Assembly: GCA_021818615.1 (NCBI GenBank)
Contig: JAKATT010000216.1
Coordinates: 1 to 36,281 of the forward strand
Direction: 5' to 3'
DNA from: Actinomycetes bacterium
Lineage (GTDB): Bacteria; Actinomycetota; Acidimicrobiia; Acidimicrobiales; Bog-793
DNA length: 36,281 nucleotides
The position numbers and the translations under genes were made by a program. Positions within the stretch are counted from its first letter, which is position 1; the number at the start of each line of letters is the position of its first letter. Under the pieces are notes generated by a model. It had not been told where the DNA came from, did no database searches, and was given only the letters and a program-made list of their open reading frames with translations. Shown here one piece after another: positions 6,497 through 31,805 of this stretch.

Positions 6497-7495
6497 TCAG
6501 GACCGGGACTGGGCAATGAGGCCCCCGGCAAGCTCGGTGGGAGTGATCGAGCCGGGGCGCCGGCGTTGCCTGGCCATCTCGTTCGCAACCTGGCGGAGCC
6601 GCTCGTTCACTGGCGTGGCGATGCCATGGAGCCGGCCGAGCAGGACGATCTCGCCGTTCAGCCAGTCGGCCTCGATGTTGCCCGTGCCCCGCTCGAGGCT
6701 CTGCCAGGACGAGCCTCCCGCCTGCACCGGCCCTTTGGCGGGCTGGAGCGGGCCCCGCAGGCGCCGGCGCTCCCTCTCGGCAACCTCGTCGGCGAGCGCG
6801 ATCCCGGCCGCCTCGTAGCACGCCCGCGCCTCGCGCCGGGCGGCCGAGGCGAGCTCCGACGCGACCGGGTCCTCGAGGGTGCCGCAGGCGGCCTCGATGG
6901 CGTTCGTCAGGTTGCTGAGCAGCTTCAGGTACTTGTGCTCCATGACGTGCTCGCTCTCCTCCGCGTCGAAACCCACCGCCCGGAGGTCCTCGGCCACCGC
7001 GCTCGCGAGCCCGTCGCTGCCCGAGGGGTACCGCCCGAGGTCGAGGATGCCCGACACGGGAGAGGTCGATATCTCGACCACGCCGGGCTCGAGGTGCGTC
7101 GCGGCAAGGATCACCCTCATTCCGTAGACGTCGGCGAAGCGGCGCAGCGCGACCCGCTCGTTCTCGACGCCGTTCTGCGCGCAGACGACGGCGGTCCCGG
7201 CCGGTGCGACGGCGGCGAGCGCTCGGAGCGCCTCCTCGCTCTGCTGGCTCTTCGTCGTGAGCAGCACGACGTCGCCTGGGCGGGGACCGGCCTGTGCTGC
7301 CGAGCCGACCGCCGGGACGTCGAGGCGGACGTGCCCAGCCGGGTCCCTCAGCTCGAGACCGCGCTCCTGCAGTGCCCGGAGGTGATCGCCTTGCGCGATG
7401 AGGACCACGTCGCGCCCGTGCTGGTACAGGCGGCCGCCGATGGCGCCTCCGATGGCGCCGGCACCGAGGACGAGGTAGCGCACGGCCCTAGGCAC
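6497..7495 (-). CDS. panE: 2-dehydropantoate 2-reductase (ApbA/PanE family)
   Basis: [30 protein letters not shown] Rossmann motif, AQNGVENE and [15 protein letters not shown] motifs. Confidence 0.85.
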
Positions 7496-7934
7496 CGAGC
7501 TCCAGCAGGATCGTCACCGGGCCGTCGTTGGCGAGCTCGACGAGCATGTCGGCGCCGAAGCTTCCGGTCGCTACCTCGGCGCCGAGCTGGCGAAGCTCGG
7601 CGACCACCGTCTCGACGAGCGGCTCGGCCACATCGCCCGGCGCCGCGGCCAGCCACGAGGGGCGGCGCCCCTTGCTCGTGTCGCCGTAGAGGGTGAACTG
7701 GCTGACGACGAGGAGGGGCGCCCCGAGCTCGGCGGCGGAACGGTTCATGCGACCCTCGTCGTCGGCCATCACCCGCAGGTTCCAGAGCCGCGAGGCGAGC
7801 GTGGCTGCGACGCTCTCGTCGTCGCTGTGCGTGACGCCGACGAGCACGCAGAGCCCCGGCCTCGAGATCGAGCCGACCACCTCGCCGGCAACGCTCACTC
7901 TCGCCCAGGCGACCCGCTGGACTACGGCCCTCAC
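7488..7934 (-). CDS. dtd: D-aminoacyl-tRNA deacylase
   Basis: [23 protein letters not shown]...[17 protein letters not shown]...[22 protein letters not shown] start overlaps the upstream stop by 4 bp. Confidence 0.95.
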
Positions 7935-8629
7935 GCCGGCGCTGCCCGAGCTGGCCTCCGCCGGGAGGCACTGGCTCCGTCGGGGGCGGAGGGCTCGAGA
8001 TATGCCGGCACCCGGATGCCGCCTGCGAGGTCCGCCGACGGCTCGGGGTCCCTGCGCTCGCAGGAGAGCCGCACGACGCCGGCCCAGCAGCGCGAGGCGA
8101 GGTCGCGCTCGTCGTCGACCGGGTCGCCCGCGCGGACCTTGGCGGACACCGTCTCGAGCGGCAGCTCGAGCATCGCCGTCTGGCGCAGCTCGCCTCGATC
8201 CGGCGCCCGTGCGTCCACAGAGCGCCCAGGAGCGACCTTCTCGACCAGTTGTTCGAGCACACGCCTCTTTGTTGCCTCGTCCGCCACGATCGAGGCGGTG
8301 CCGTGGACGACGACCGAGCGGTAGTTGACCGAGTGGTGGAACATGGACCGGGCGAGGACGAGGCCGTCGATCAGCGTCACCTCGAAGCTCACCGAAAGGC
8401 CCCGCCGCCGCACCGCCAGGCGGGCAGGACGGGCCCCGGTCGAGCTGTGCAGGTAGATGCTCCCGCCCTCGCGTACGAACAAGAGCGGCAGGAGCTGCGG
8501 CGCGCCATCGGCGACGAATGCAAGATGCCCGACAAGGGCTTCGTCGAGGATCGAGTGCACGGTCGCCTCGTCGTAGCGGGCTCGCTCGGGGTGGCGAGAG
8601 GGTGCAGTCGATGCGACCGGCTCGTACAT
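7931..8629 (-). CDS. Pyridoxamine 5'-phosphate oxidase-like FMN-binding protein
   Basis: [40 protein letters not shown]...[16 protein letters not shown] is typical of the PPOX/Pyridox_ox_2 family. Confidence 0.85.
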
Positions 8630-23092: not shown

Positions 23093-23259
23093 CGCCGCCG
23101 TTACACTGATCCCGGACAACACGGCAGTGCAGGTCGAGAGTTGTGGTTCCTGGGCGGCATCCTGTCGTCTCGGGCAGCGGAGCCGGGTCCCTGGCAACCT
23201 TGACCGCACCGGAGCCGGCGAGCCCCCTTCTTACTGCGACACACGGAGGCATCGGGATT

Positions 23260-24195
23260 TTGGCGAAGGAGCGAGTCGAGCGGGACGAGGAAGATCTCGT
23301 CCGCCTGTATCTCACCGATATCGGTCAATACCCGCTCCTCACCAAGGATGACGAGGTGCGCCTGGCGCAGGCCATCGAGGCGCGCTGGACGGCCGAGGAG
23401 GAGCTGCGGGCCAAGAAGGGGCTCACCCCGACGCGGCGCCGGGAGCTGGGCAGGGCAGTCAGGCAGGGAGAGACCGCCCAGCGCACCTTCGTGCAGTCGA
23501 ACCTGCGCCTCGTCGTGTCGATCGCGAAGAAGTACCAGGCATCGGGCCTGCCGCTCCTCGACCTCATCCAGGAGGGCAATCTCGGTCTGATGCACGCTGT
23601 CGAGAAGTTCGACTGGCGCAAGGGCTTCAAGTTCTCCACCTATGCCACCTGGTGGATCCGCCAAGCGATCACCCGCGGCATCGCCAACACCGGCCGGACC
23701 ATCCGCCTTCCGGTCCATGCCGGCGACACCCTCGCCCGGGTGCAGAAGGCACAGGCGCGGCTCGAGCTCAAGCTCGGCCGCCCGGCGACGCTCGCCGAGC
23801 TCGGCACCGAGGTGGAGCTGCCCGAGGACAAGCTGATCGAGGCCCTGCGGTTTCGCGCCGAGCCACTGTCGCTCTCCGAGCCCCTCCGGGAGGACGGCGA
23901 CGCCGAGCTCGGGGACGTGGTCGAGGACAGGTCGGCCGAGTCGCCCTTCGAGATGGCGGCCACGGCGCTCCTTCCCGTCGAGATCAACCGCCTGCTCGCA
24001 CCCCTCGACGAGCGCGAGCGTGAGATCCTCCGGCTTCGTTTCGGCCTCGACCGGGGCGAGCCGCGAACCCTGGAGGAGGTCGGCGAGCACTTCAACCTCA
24101 CCCGGGAGCGGATCCGCCAGATCGAGGCCCGGGCGATGTCGAAGCTGCGCCACCCCTCGAGCGATACCGGGGCCCGAGACCTCCTCACCGTCTGA
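23260..24195 (+). CDS. RNA polymerase sigma-70 family factor (RpoD/SigA-like, short N-terminus)
   Basis: LYLTDIGQYPLLTKDDEVRLAQAIE, NLRLVVSIAKKYQASGLPLLDLIQEGNLGLMHAVEKFDWRKGFKFSTYATWWIRQAITRGI, TRERIRQIEARAMSKLRHP. TTG 23260 chosen for the upstream ggagg; start uncertain. Confidence 0.92.
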   Translation: MAKERVERDEEDLVRLYLTDIGQYPLLTKDDEVRLAQAIEARWTAEEELRAKKGLTPTRRRELGRAVRQGETAQRTFVQSNLRLVVSIAKKYQASGLPLLDLIQEGNLGLMHAVEKFDWRKGFKFSTYATWWIRQAITRGIANTGRTIRLPVHAGDTLARVQKAQARLELKLGRPATLAELGTEVELPEDKLIEALRFRAEPLSLSEPLREDGDAELGDVVEDRSAESPFEMAATALLPVEINRLLAPLDEREREILRLRFGLDRGEPRTLEEVGEHFNLTRERIRQIEARAMSKLRHPSSDTGARDLLTV

Positions 24196-24258
24196 CATCC
24201 CGGGCTTCGACGCCAGGCCGGCGCAGCCGCCCGAGCAGCAAGCCGGTACGATCACCCC

Positions 24259-24336
24259 ATGTTGAAGAAGCTGATCGTGCTCGCAGTGCTCGTCGCCCTC
24301 GCAGCGCTCGCCGCCAGGCGGCTTCGAGGAAGCTGA
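24259..24336 (+). CDS. Putative 25-aa single-pass membrane microprotein MLKKLIVLAVLVALAALAARRLRGS
   Basis: ATG to TGA ORF with basic N-terminus, hydrophobic core and basic C-terminus; TACGAT hexamer ends 6 nt upstream; below the ORF-track cutoff. Confidence 0.5.
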   Translation: MLKKLIVLAVLVALAALAARRLRGS

Positions 24337-24347
24337 TCCCAGCCAGC

Positions 24348-25184
24348 TCAACGTTCCCCGGCGAGCCCCCGCCGGCGGGCGGCCAGCCACCAGCCGAGTG
24401 AGAAAGCGCCTGCTCCGGCGGCGACGGCGCCCACCGAGACGGCGATGACCGGTCTCGGCGGGACGGAGGAGATGCGGTCCCTTACGCCGCGCACCCTGTC
24501 GCGCAGACGAACCGGCTGTACGAAGCGCGTGATCTCGAAGCCGTGCTCCCTGGCGTACTTGGCGAGGACCCGGTCGGGATTGACTGCGACGGGGTGCCCG
24601 ACGGCCTCGAGCATGGGCAGGTCTGTGTAGGAGTCCGTGTAGGCATAGGACTCCTCGAGGTCGATTCCTTCGCGCTCGGCGAGCGCCGTCATCGCCTCGG
24701 CCTTGTACTCGCCGTAGGCGTAGAACTCCATCCTGCCGGTGTACCTGCCCTCTTCGTCGACCTCCGCCCTGCTCGCGATGGTCGCGTCGGCTCCGAGGTA
24801 GCGCCCGAGCGGGGCGACGAGCTCCTCGGGCGAAGCGGACACGATCACGACGTAATGGCCCTCGGCCAGGTGCTTGTCGATGAGGTCGGCCGCCTCTGCG
24901 TAGATGATCGGGTCGACGATCTGGTCGAGCGCCTCCTCGACGATCTCCTGCACCCTCGCCTGCTGCCAGCCACGGGTGAGCTTCAGCACCGATTCGCGGA
25001 TCCGGTCGAGCTTCTCCTCGCTCGCCCCGAGGTGCAGGTAGACGAGCTGGCCGTAGAGTGCCCGGAGCACGGTACGGCGGTTGATGAGGCCACCGTGGTA
25101 GAGCGGGCGTCCAAAGGCCACCATCGACGCCCTGGCGATGACCGTCTTGTCGAGGTCGAAGAAGGCTGCCTGGCGGTCGCTCAC
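24348..25184 (-). CDS. HAD-IB family hydrolase with C-terminal TM segment
   Basis: AAFFDLDKTVIARAS, VVIVSASPEELVAPL, YAYTDSYTDLPMLEAVGHPVAVNPD; C-terminal RPVIAVSVGAVAAGAGAFSLGWWLAARRR. Confidence 0.88.
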   Translation of the reverse strand: MSDRQAAFFDLDKTVIARASMVAFGRPLYHGGLINRRTVLRALYGQLVYLHLGASEEKLDRIRESVLKLTRGWQQARVQEIVEEALDQIVDPIIYAEAADLIDKHLAEGHYVVIVSASPEELVAPLGRYLGADATIASRAEVDEEGRYTGRMEFYAYGEYKAEAMTALAEREGIDLEESYAYTDSYTDLPMLEAVGHPVAVNPDRVLAKYAREHGFEITRFVQPVRLRDRVRGVRDRISSVPPRPVIAVSVGAVAAGAGAFSLGWWLAARRRGLAGER

Positions 25185-25906
25185 GGGCTCGCGGCGCTCC
25201 CTTGGCCGCCGTCCTCCGAGAGCCCGTGCGGGCCGTGCAGCGCCGTCGGGGCGAGCAGCTGGCGCAGCTCGTCGTCCTCGATCTGGGCGCTCGCGAGGAG
25301 GAGGACCTCGTCACCGACGTCGAGCACCATGTCCGAGCGCGGGACTACGACATGGCCGTCGCGCACGAGCGCCACGACGGTCGCGCCGCGCGGCAGGCCG
25401 AGATCGGCGACGGCCGCCCCCTGCGCCGGCGAGCCCTCGGCGAGGGTCACCTCGATGAGGCGGGTGTTGCCGCCCTCGAATTGCAGCAGGCGGACGAGGA
25501 CGCCGACCGAGACGGCCTCCTCGACGAGCCCGGCGAGCAACTGCGGCGTCGACACGGCGACGTCGACCCCCCAGCTCTCGTTGAAGAGCCAGTGGTTGCG
25601 TGGGTGGTTCACCCGGGCGATGACGCGCGGTACGGCGAATTCCTGTTTGGCCAAGAGCGAGATCACTAGGTTGTCCTCGTCGTCACCGGTCACGGCGACC
25701 ATCACCTCGGCCTCGTCGACTCGCGCATCGAGGAGGCTCGTGACCTCGCAGGCGTCGGCCGCGACGGTGCGGACCCCCTCCGGCAGGTCGAGCGAGCTTG
25801 CAAGAGCAGGGTCCTTCTCGATGAGCAGCACGTCGTGGCCGCCGATCGCCAGCTCCTCGGCCAGGAAGCGGCCGACCTTGCCGGCACCTGCGACGGCCAC
25901 TTTCAT
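25181..25906 (-). CDS. TrkA-type potassium transport regulatory protein (second of pair)
   Basis: MKVAVAGAGKVGRFLAEELAIGGHDVLLIEKD TrkA_N signature, TrkA_C-like C-terminus; ATGA overlap with the upstream trkA-like gene. The track start is 25915. Confidence 0.88.
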   Translation of the reverse strand: MKVAVAGAGKVGRFLAEELAIGGHDVLLIEKDPALASSLDLPEGVRTVAADACEVTSLLDARVDEAEVMVAVTGDDEDNLVISLLAKQEFAVPRVIARVNHPRNHWLFNESWGVDVAVSTPQLLAGLVEEAVSVGVLVRLLQFEGGNTRLIEVTLAEGSPAQGAAVADLGLPRGATVVALVRDGHVVVPRSDMVLDVGDEVLLLASAQIEDDELRQLLAPTALHGPHGLSEDGGQGSAASP

Positions 25907-26670
25907 CGGTGCCACCTGCTCGTCTCTCGGCGCTCGGCGGGCCGCCTCGTCGCGCGTGCGGCTCCTTTTGCAGGCGCCTCGGCCTGCAGGGTAGGGCTGG
26001 TGGCATGCATCGTGTCACTGCTGAACAGCTCGCGGAACGCCGACTCGCTGCGGGCGCTCACCAGCAGGTGCAGGACGTCACCTTCCTGGCCGACCAGAGT
26101 GTCGACGTCGAGCAGCGCTTGGCCCGCCCGTGTCACGGCCACGAGCTTCATCGACGGCGATGGACCAGACGCGAGCGCATCGCACACGCTGCGCCCAGCC
26201 CATGCGGCCGGGAGCGTGCGTTCGACGATGTGGAGCTGTCCGGACGAGTCTGTCCAGTCGAAGGCCCCCGCTCCGGGCAGGATCTTGCGGAAGACCTGGT
26301 CTATCGTCCAGCTCACTGACGGCACGGTGGGGATGCCGAGGCGCTGGAAGATCTCGGCGCGGCGCGGGTCGTAGATGCGGGCGACGACGTTCGGGATCTC
26401 GTAGGTCTCCCGGGCTATGCGGGCGGTGAGGATGTTCGAGTTGTCGCCACTCGTGACGGCGGCGAGGGCGTCCGCCCGCTCGGCGCCCGCCTCGTCGAGG
26501 TGGCCCCGGTCGAACCCGAACCCGAGCACCTTCTGGCCGCGCCAGCCTCGCGGCAGGCGCCTGAACGCGCTCGCCTGCTTGTCGACGATGGCGACGCTGT
26601 GCCCCTCGGCCTCGAGCTGCGAGGCGAGGCCCGAGCCGACCCGACCGCAGCCGACGACGATGACGTGCAT
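25903..26670 (-). CDS. TrkA-type potassium transport regulatory protein (first of pair)
   Basis: MHVIVVGCGRVGSGLASQLEAEGHSVAIVDK TrkA_N signature, TrkA_C-like region, basic C-terminal tail. Confidence 0.88.
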   Translation of the reverse strand: MHVIVVGCGRVGSGLASQLEAEGHSVAIVDKQASAFRRLPRGWRGQKVLGFGFDRGHLDEAGAERADALAAVTSGDNSNILTARIARETYEIPNVVARIYDPRRAEIFQRLGIPTVPSVSWTIDQVFRKILPGAGAFDWTDSSGQLHIVERTLPAAWAGRSVCDALASGPSPSMKLVAVTRAGQALLDVDTLVGQEGDVLHLLVSARSESAFRELFSSDTMHATSPTLQAEAPAKGAARATRRPAERRETSRWHR

Positions 26671-26737
26671 TGATCCCCATCCTTCCCGGTCCGGCCAGCT
26701 CACACAACTACCCGGGAGCTTCAAGGCACTTGATTGA

Positions 26738-29374
26738 GTGTCGCGTCGACCGGCGGGTCAAGATAGCTGGGTGGCAACGTCGCGCCCGGAGGGAACCGAT
26801 ACCCCGGTCACCGGTATCGCACCGGGTGCCTACGTCCTGCCGGAGCCGTTCAGCTACCGCCTGAAGAAGCGCCTCCTCGGCGAACCACTCGTCACCGAGC
26901 GCCTCTCGGAGGAGAAGCTGTCCAAGACAGTCGCGCTCGGCGTCCTGTCACCCGACTGCATCTCGTCCACAGCGTACGGCTCCGAGGAGATGCTCAACCA
27001 GCTCGTGCCGGTGATCGGTGTCGCGGCCTTCAGCCTTCTGCTGCCGGTCACCGGCGCGATCCTGCTGGTGCTGCTCTTCGTCACCCTCTCGTACCGAGAG
27101 GTCGTCATGGTCTACACGAAGGCCGGCGGATCCTACGTGGTGAGCAGGGACAACTTCGGTCCGCGGGTCGCCCAGGTGGCCGCGGTGGCGCTCATCATCG
27201 ACTACATCCTCACGGTCGCCGTGCAGACCTCTGCGGGCACCGACGCGCTCACCTCTGCCTTCCCGGTGCTGATCCCCGCCCACCTGTACATCACCGTCGG
27301 CGTCGTCGCCGTCATCACCTGGGGGAACCTTCGCGGCATCCGCGAGGCGGGGCGGATGTTCGCCCTCCCGACCTATCTGTTCATCTTTGGGATCGCCTCG
27401 CTCGTAGCCGTCGGTCTGGTCCGGCTCGTTCTCGGCGACCTGCCCGTCCATTCGATCCACCACCCGGGCGTCGACATAGGCCACCAGAGCCTGAACGGGC
27501 TGGCGCTCGGGGTGGCCACCATGATGATCCTGCGCTCTTTCGCCAACGGCGGGTCGTCGCTCACCGGCCTCGAGGCGATCTCGAACGGGGTGGCGAACTT
27601 CCGCAAGCCCAACGGCCGAAATGCCCGGCGAGTACTCGTCATAATGTCGGTCACGCTCGGCACGCTCGTGCTCGGAGTCTCGGTCATCGCCTGGCACACG
27701 CACGCCGTTCCATACCGTATCGGCACGCCGACTGTCATCTCCCAGGAGGCGCGCTTCGTCTTCGGGCACTCTCTGGCCGGCAACGTGGCCTTCTACTTCG
27801 TCCAGTTCGTCTCGATGCTGATCCTGTACACAGGAGCGAACACGAGCTTCAACGGCTTCCCCAACCTGGCGAGCTTCGTCGCCGAGGACGCCTACCTACC
27901 CCGCCAGCTCACGAGGCGGGGCCATCGCCTCGTCTTTTCCAACGGCATCCTCATCCTCTCCGTCGTCTCGATCGCGCTCATCATCGGCACGAAGGCCAGC
28001 GTGAACGCGCTCGTGGCGATGTATGCCATCGGCGTCTTCGTCGGCTTCACGATGGCCGGAGCCGGCATGGTGAAGCACCACCTCACCTACCGAGAGAGGG
28101 GATGGCGCTACAAGATATTGATCAACGGCTCTGCCGCCGTGCTCTCGGCGCTGATCGTCGGGATCCTCGCCGTCGTCAAGTTCACCGAGGGGGCCTGGCT
28201 CGTCGTCGCCCTGTTCCCCGTGCTCATCTTCGTGCTCATCCGGCTGCACAAGCAGTACTCCGACGAGAAGGCCGAGCTCGAGCAGAATGCCGGCAGGGCG
28301 GCCGCCGCCCCCGTGCTGCGCCACCACACCGTGCTCGTCTTCGTCGAGCGCCTCGACCTGGCGACCGCCCGGGCGCTGCAGTACGCCCGCACGCTCCAGC
28401 CGGACGAGCTGCGGGCGGTGCACTTCGTTCTCGACAGCGCGCAGGCCCGGGAGCTGCAGAGCCAGTGGAGCCGCCTCGGTCTCAGCCGCTTCCCGCTCGA
28501 TCTCGTCGAGTGTCCGGACCGGCGGATTACCCGGGCGTCGATGGAGCTGGTGGCCGAGGCGGCCGAGGACGGCCAGACCGAGGTGAGCGTCCTCCTGCCG
28601 CGGCGGGTGTTCGAGGGCGCGTGGCGCCGGGTGCTGCACGACCGTACGGCCGATCGCATTGCCGGTTACGTGAGTCAGCTGCCGAACGCCAACGCCACGA
28701 TCGTGCCGTTCCCGCTCGGCAAACGCCGCCGCGAGCTCGTGCCCTGGCGGGGCACCGCCGCCGAGACGGCCTCTGTGGCTGCCGCCGAGCAGTACCTGGC
28801 GTCCTCCGGTGAACCCGTGGCCGGCAGGCGCCGCCGCGCACGCCACGACATCGCGCACCCGTGGGGTCCAGCCGGCGTGGAGCGGTCGCGTCCCGAGGCA
28901 CCCGCGCCCGGTCACATAGCCGGTGAAGCCCGGGCGGGCCAGGCCGCCGGGCCGGGGCAGGCCGCCGGGCCGGGGCAGGCCGCCGGGCCGGGGCAGGCCG
29001 CGCCCGGCGAGGCCGAGCTTGCAGCCGCTGCCTCGGGGGCGCGGGGTCATGCTCTCCCGGACCGCGTCGCCCGCCAGCCAGGCGTCACGACGATCGGGGA
29101 GCTGCGCTGGCGACAGCGGGCCAAGGTGCAGGGTAGGGTGCGGTCCCTCAGGGTGCAGGCAGGAGCAGGCGTCCCGAGCGTCGAGTGCGTCCTCGCCGAC
29201 GAGACAGGCCAGCTAATGCTCGTGTTCCAGGGACGCAGGCGTGTTCCCGGTATCGAGCCGGGCGCTCGCCTGCTCGTAGAAGGGATGGTCGGCGAGCGGG
29301 GACGGCGCACGGCCATGATCAATCCGATGTTCACCATCTTGAAGACGGCGGAGGGCTCAGGCGAGCCCTCGTGA
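26738..29374 (+). CDS. APC-family permease with USP-like domain and C-terminal OB-fold
   Basis: SKTVALGVLSPDCISSTAYGSEEMLNQLVPVIGVAAF and multiple TM segments; VLVFVERLDLATARALQYAR... USP-like region; low-complexity linker; VTTIGELRWRQRAKVQGRVRSLRV...VECVLADETGQLMLVFQGRRRVPGIEPGARLLVEGMV OB-fold-like. Confidence 0.85.
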   Translation: MSRRPAGQDSWVATSRPEGTDTPVTGIAPGAYVLPEPFSYRLKKRLLGEPLVTERLSEEKLSKTVALGVLSPDCISSTAYGSEEMLNQLVPVIGVAAFSLLLPVTGAILLVLLFVTLSYREVVMVYTKAGGSYVVSRDNFGPRVAQVAAVALIIDYILTVAVQTSAGTDALTSAFPVLIPAHLYITVGVVAVITWGNLRGIREAGRMFALPTYLFIFGIASLVAVGLVRLVLGDLPVHSIHHPGVDIGHQSLNGLALGVATMMILRSFANGGSSLTGLEAISNGVANFRKPNGRNARRVLVIMSVTLGTLVLGVSVIAWHTHAVPYRIGTPTVISQEARFVFGHSLAGNVAFYFVQFVSMLILYTGANTSFNGFPNLASFVAEDAYLPRQLTRRGHRLVFSNGILILSVVSIALIIGTKASVNALVAMYAIGVFVGFTMAGAGMVKHHLTYRERGWRYKILINGSAAVLSALIVGILAVVKFTEGAWLVVALFPVLIFVLIRLHKQYSDEKAELEQNAGRAAAAPVLRHHTVLVFVERLDLATARALQYARTLQPDELRAVHFVLDSAQARELQSQWSRLGLSRFPLDLVECPDRRITRASMELVAEAAEDGQTEVSVLLPRRVFEGAWRRVLHDRTADRIAGYVSQLPNANATIVPFPLGKRRRELVPWRGTAAETASVAAAEQYLASSGEPVAGRRRRARHDIAHPWGPAGVERSRPEAPAPGHIAGEARAGQAAGPGQAAGPGQAAGPGQAAPGEAELAAAASGARGHALPDRVARQPGVTTIGELRWRQRAKVQGRVRSLRVQAGAGVPSVECVLADETGQLMLVFQGRRRVPGIEPGARLLVEGMVGERGRRTAMINPMFTILKTAEGSGEPS
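28943..28996. repeat. 18-bp tandem repeat x3 in the linker of the permease-OB fusion
   Basis: gccgccgggccggggcag repeated three times exactly; encodes GQAAGP repeats. Confidence 0.9.

Positions 29375-29459: not shown

Positions 29460-31805
<2,346 letters not shown>

Follow-up and report, generated by a model that had tools for sequence, protein, structure and literature searches.

What is an OB-fold domain, of the kind typical of nucleic-acid-binding proteins, doing at the end of a potassium transporter? The question is raised by one gene in a contig of 36,281 nucleotides from an Actinomycetes bacterium (lineage Acidimicrobiia; Acidimicrobiales; Bog-793; JAKATT010000216.1 of assembly GCA_021818615.1), the whole of which was analysed and is called here the window. 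The original prediction, made from the letters alone, described an APC permease, a USP-like region and an OB-fold domain in a single reading frame, the last attached through a linker with GQAAGP repeats, and proposed a functional link between K+ transport and the OB-fold protein. The transporter and the OB-fold domain do share one frame: on the forward strand 878 codons run without a stop, and the same span on the opposite strand is interrupted by stops. Since conservation begins only near residue 34, the true start may lie slightly downstream of the listed one. The parts of the gene and its neighbours are given in Table 1.

Table 1. Coordinates of the fusion gene, its parts and the adjoining genes in the window.
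Feature	Position	Strand	Remarks
TrkA1, TrkA-type protein	25181..25915	-	TrkA_N and TrkA_C domains
TrkA2, TrkA-type (RCK) protein	25903..26724	-	divergent from the fusion gene; probable start ATG at 26670
KimA-OB fusion gene	26738..29374	+	878 aa; listed start GTG at 26738
Membrane domain, KimA-type (residues 41-505)	26858..28252	+	KimA match; conserved K+/H+ residues
KimA cytosolic domain (residues 525-671)	28310..28750	+	PPAT-like in KimA; the "USP-like region" of the original prediction
Disordered linker (residues 672-783)	28751..29086	+	113 aa here, 21-113 aa in relatives; sequence unconserved
18-bp tandem repeat, about 4 copies	28930..29001	+	inside the linker; encodes GQAAGP
Predicted OB-fold domain (residues 784-870)	29087..29347	+	basic; conserved F830, GRR 832-834, N862-P863
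Membrane-bound ion-pumping pyrophosphatase	29460..31805	+	often adjoins KimA in this class

The transporter can be named with some precision. Residues 41-638 match KimA of Bacillus subtilis (6s3k, E 4.6e-108) over both its membrane and its cytosolic domains, and an AlphaFold2 model of the full fusion protein (mean pLDDT 82, the linker being of low confidence) gives the KimA structures 8b70, 8b71 and 6s3k as its best Foldseek matches, with E 6.7e-35 for 8b70. By match and predicted fold, the "APC permease" is a KimA-type K+/H+ symporter of the KUP subfamily, which narrows that part of the prediction. The USP-like region has to be given up: Pfam finds no Usp domain there, and the KimA match covers the stretch as KimA's own cytosolic domain, which has been described as PPAT-like (PMC6994465). 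The functional residues are also in place. D73, Y80, T159, T276, E279 and Y429 of the window protein correspond to D36, Y43, T121, T230, E233 and Y377 of KimA, whose roles in K+ binding and proton coupling have been reported (PMC6994465, PMC10284832). Among 58 fused proteins the equivalents of D36, Y43, E233 and Y377 are invariant, and those of T121 and T230 are kept wherever they can be read, the single exception being a residue given as X, so that each of the five K+-site residues (D36, Y43, T121, T230 and Y377) is present in 57 or 58 proteins and the glutamate with the proton-coupling role, E233 (PMC6994465), in all 58. Because these residues are kept, the fused transporter should work, K+ transport being what they predict. 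The likeness to B. subtilis KimA thus extends to the full-length match, the predicted fold and the invariant positions, and the differences are two: KimA stops after the cytosolic domain, whereas the window protein adds a linker and an OB fold, and two positions of the c-di-AMP pocket are altered in the fused proteins (V457 to E and A481 to D or E).

The C-terminal domain is harder to recognise in sequence. It matches Pfam PF01336 at 26.2 bits, just under the cut-off of 27, its NCBIfam match is RecG, and nothing significant came up when the OB domain by itself was searched against the PDB sequences. PF01336 is nonetheless matched, at E up to 0.01, by 49 of 55 members of the OB family to which the domain belongs. 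In an AlphaFold2 model (pLDDT 89.6) the domain is a barrel of strands, and Foldseek relates this model to archaeal RPA-type OB domains and to RecG (2ken, 3dm3 and 1gm5, E below 0.001), the protein-binding RMI core being also among the matches; on the strength of the model, the domain is an OB fold. The RecG wedge and tRNA_anti-codon OB domains (PF17191, PF01336) are its nearest Pfam families as well as structural matches. The fusion protein, in contrast to RecG and the tRNA_anti-codon proteins, is without a helicase or synthetase domain, and a true RecG (L246) scores only 26 bits against the OB family profile versus at least 45 bits for nearly all members, by which contamination of the family with RecG-like helicases was rejected. 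With a mean net charge of +5.5 and a median pI of about 11 the OB domain is basic, and the cytosolic end of KimA is near neutral (net charge about zero per 100 aa). Against giving the charge much weight, genomes rich in GC commonly encode proteins rich in arginine. Conserved positions are R792, G799, R800, D821, F830, GRR 832-834 and N862-P863; together with the basic charge they would suit binding of a polyanion or a nucleotide. OB folds can also bind proteins.

A frame that joins two domains through a repeat might have arisen by a sequencing or assembly error that removed a stop between them, and the original prediction had named this possibility, along with that of relatives being split throughout. 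A second species of the same genus, however, keeps the fusion in one frame with an unrelated linker. We also surveyed 30 genomes of the same family, checking the OB part and the end of KimA for a single open frame, and found them in one frame in 28; in the two exceptions the OB part is cut by the end of a contig (L042) or the copy is broken (L058). In the broken copy (positions 7171-8205 of the locus, genome G018) remnants of KimA and OB are joined in a short stretch, either by a real deletion or by an assembly join. The second species and the family survey together reject an artefact as the source of the fusion. Of the 80 best matches in the named collection, 74 are fused, three are truncated and three are overlapping pairs, a fused fraction that is biased upward by selection for similarity to a fused query; going by their titles these matches are mostly Acidimicrobiia, and the fused set includes an isolate, Aciditerrimonas ferrireducens (L114). 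Neither possibility therefore holds: no stop codon has been lost, and not every relative is split. Their linkers, of 21-113 residues, drift without sequence conservation, and the OB part meanwhile stays highly identical. The predicted GQAAGP repeat is there in the window as a tandem repeat (Table 1); it is absent from the relatives' linkers examined, for which reason we rejected it as a functional motif. The fusion is both ancient and conserved. More divergent KimA-OB loci (L053, L054, L055, L056 and L057) occur within the family as well; several of the genomes concerned carry such a locus as a second copy, which in the stretch seen is not near the TrkA genes.

Across the class and the phylum we found three arrangements, namely an OB gene near KimA, overlapping KimA and OB genes, and a single gene. 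The distance between the OB gene and KimA is about 0.6 to 5 kb in most genomes, and the TrkA pair usually stands between them. This agrees with the original prediction for other actinobacteria, where the KimA homologue, the OB gene and two TrkA-type genes are close neighbours without being fused. Nine unfused loci have KimA and then OB as consecutive genes, the OB start falling within 4 nt of the KimA stop and the two genes mostly overlapping. On a KimA tree (midpoint root, quick search) two changes explain the fusion, one gain and one loss, with the coupled pairs beside the fused clade and the separate neighbours further out. The loss is that of two Streptomyces plasmid copies (L005 and L006), whose KimA, 52-54% identical to that of the window, lies inside the fused clade without an OB part; these copies appear to have been acquired by horizontal transfer and to have lost the OB domain afterwards. 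Both plasmid copies adjoin sugar-biosynthesis genes. Also nested in the fused clade are a copy from another family of the phylum (L227) and MAG copies titled Frankiales and Pseudonocardiales, a placement which suggests that the fused copies outside the family reflect horizontal transfer. Viral contigs searched with the fusion protein gave no match.

The neighbours of the OB family at large are informative about its role. When matches were scored on the OB part, so that neighbours were not presupposed, and the loci first picked as KimA-OB pairs were included, 104 of 106 OB loci proved to be K+-uptake loci: 35 fused to KimA, 54 with KimA/TrkA and 15 classed as kdp, one of these (L010) by a KdpD-like kinase alone. 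The remaining two lie on cut contigs. Nineteen phylum and class matches had at first no nearby KimA; TrkA, KimA or kdp genes accompany 18 of them, and the one left is beside a pyrophosphatase gene on a short contig. Within the 30 family genomes, all 13 unfused OB paralogues adjoin kdp genes (L059-L061 and L236-L245), a count which leaves out RecG matches and the broken L058 copy. The orders are kdpA-kdpB-kdpC-OB and OB-kdpA-kdpB-kdpC, and several of the OB genes overlap the starts or stops of kdpA or kdpC. These genes match the same OB profile (52-76 bits) and are likewise set with a K+ uptake system, but their partner is the P-type ATPase KdpFABC, which is unrelated to KimA. That the OB protein is functionally linked to K+ transport was supported already by the conserved fusion and by the separate neighbours elsewhere; these paralogues in kdp operons make the link stronger than originally proposed. 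Since nearly all actinobacterial relatives adjoin K+-uptake genes, the OB domain probably takes part in the control of K+ uptake, a role not recognised before. Our literature search found no paper joining an OB fold with KdpFABC, and the search for KimA, potassium and OB-fold found only work on human protein complexes.

The two TrkA_N proteins (by Pfam) that adjoin the fusion gene bear on the same question. Two TrkA-type proteins encoded divergently beside a transporter recall the Trk system (TrkA plus TrkH); the difference is that 24 of 26 genomes, this one among them, lack a TrkH/KtrB-type subunit (PF02386) by a search that was positive in 11 of 14 controls, and that KimA takes the membrane place by position. 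Because TrkH is missing and KimA is encoded beside the TrkA pair and divergently from it, KimA is likely the membrane partner of these proteins.

Mycobacteria offer genetic data on the unfused arrangement. Transposon mutants of M. tuberculosis in ceoB and in the adjacent Rv2690c both show enhanced survival of rifampicin (PMC12216072). In M. smegmatis under rifampicin, MSMEI_2699, annotated as an OB-fold protein, acquired 11 mutations versus 1 without the drug, and MSMEI_2701 (trkB) 4 versus 0; in the rows shown of Table 2 of that paper, in which MSMEI_2699 appears solely in the table, it is the second most mutated gene after rpoB (PMC10433840). A phosphopeptide of Rv2694c, RIPGIDTGR (PMC4322841), resembles RVPGIEPGAR of the window OB sequence, and the gene order OB, DUF3159, TrkA2, TrkA1, KimA of locus L228 fits the MSMEI numbering from 2699 to 2701. 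Membership of both proteins in the OB family is therefore well supported, for MSMEI_2699 by annotation and position and for Rv2694c by the peptide. They are alike to the window domain in belonging to a family that recurs, by profile, in separate loci, and differ in that each is a separate gene, in Actinomycetes often followed by DUF3159, whereas the window OB is fused to the transporter. The rifampicin phenotypes shared by the OB gene, trkB, ceoB and Rv2690c agree with a link between them, and a role of the OB protein in K+ uptake would explain this rank of MSMEI_2699 in the rifampicin evolution experiment (PMC10433840). Mycobacterial K+ uptake is described as "Trk", in the sense of two TrkA proteins, and the literature on it that we searched names no TrkH/TrkG membrane subunit and does not mention KimA. 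The conserved locus supplies candidates for what is missing there: a symporter of the KimA type and a subunit with an OB fold.

From these data we consider it reasonably probable that the gene product is a K+ importer of the KimA type, coupled to protons, with a regulatory domain of its own. This domain, the OB fold, would belong to an actinobacterial family whose members control K+ uptake. Some of them would act as separate subunits, with KimA plus the TrkA pair or with KdpABC, and in the window this subunit would be tethered by a flexible linker to the cytosolic dimer of KimA. The basic face of the domain would most likely bind an anionic ligand (a nucleotide, a nucleic acid or a similar polyanion), and transport activity would then be set jointly by this binding and by the TrkA pair. 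Against control by the OB domain it can be said that KimA relatives without it, such as that of B. subtilis, must work alone, that the Streptomyces plasmid copies have lost it, and that its score in the window is just under the Pfam cut-off; a regulatory role is still the most likely reading. A wider proposal we advance only tentatively, giving it somewhat less than an even chance: a general actinobacterial OB-fold module for control of K+ uptake would serve both the KimA+TrkA pair and KdpABC and would sense, by binding a polyanion, one signal shared by the two, perhaps a nucleotide or the ionic strength, with KimA (Rv2690c) as the missing membrane part of "Trk".

The same neighbourhoods could be read in another way, with the OB domain binding neither nucleic acid nor nucleotide and acting as an adaptor between proteins, which would link KimA to the TrkA (RCK) ring or KdpABC to KdpD. 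OB genes do adjoin both TrkA and kdp genes, the TrkA pair needs another membrane partner as TrkH is missing, and the RMI core found by Foldseek is protein-binding. Kdp and KimA/TrkA, however, have no obvious partner surface in common, and the domain is strongly basic and nearest in sequence to nucleic-acid OB families, so we regard an adaptor as rather unlikely. Those families, the predicted likeness to RPA-type OB domains and RecG, and the basic surface would agree with control at the level of RNA, where the domain would bind an mRNA or small RNA and adjust the expression of K+-uptake genes, tethering serving only to localise it. Permanent attachment to a transporter across a class favours instead control of the protein itself, and a search of the window for Rfam elements at the gathering threshold gave none, a riboswitch included; we hold control through RNA to be improbable.

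Another candidate ligand is c-di-AMP, which inhibits KimA of B. subtilis (PMC10284832) and for which the OB domain could, in this branch, be the sensor in place of the KimA pocket or alongside it. In the 58 fused proteins V457 of this pocket is replaced by E in all and A481 by D or E in 56, but the other pocket residues are largely kept, R337 in 52 and H579 in all 58. The diadenylate cyclase domain (PF02457), moreover, was found in 15 related genomes and not in seven of the 22 (G000, G001, G003, G012, G013, G017 and G076), several of the genomes being incomplete MAGs; both genomes of this genus are among the seven, and the fusion is kept there. Signalling by c-di-AMP may have been lost in part of the clade. 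The genomes without the cyclase domain, some of them incomplete, disfavour c-di-AMP as the general signal, and a sensor of it we think very improbable. That the fusion is an accident without functional meaning, as the variable and partly repetitive linker and the OB loss in the Streptomyces plasmid copies might suggest, is scarcely credible given that nearly all members of the clade have it, that OB identity stays high while the linker drifts and that the same OB family occurs in kdp operons.

The regulated importer that we prefer has two further neighbours in the window. The pyrophosphatase downstream is named sodium-translocating by NCBIfam; a relative of it in another locus (L004, 3510-5870, minus strand) carries the motif GNTTKA, a mark of K+-independent, H+-pumping enzymes. 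On the other side, a long minus-strand ORF (23101-25314) has no Pfam or NCBIfam match, and parts of it are 47-69% identical in relatives.
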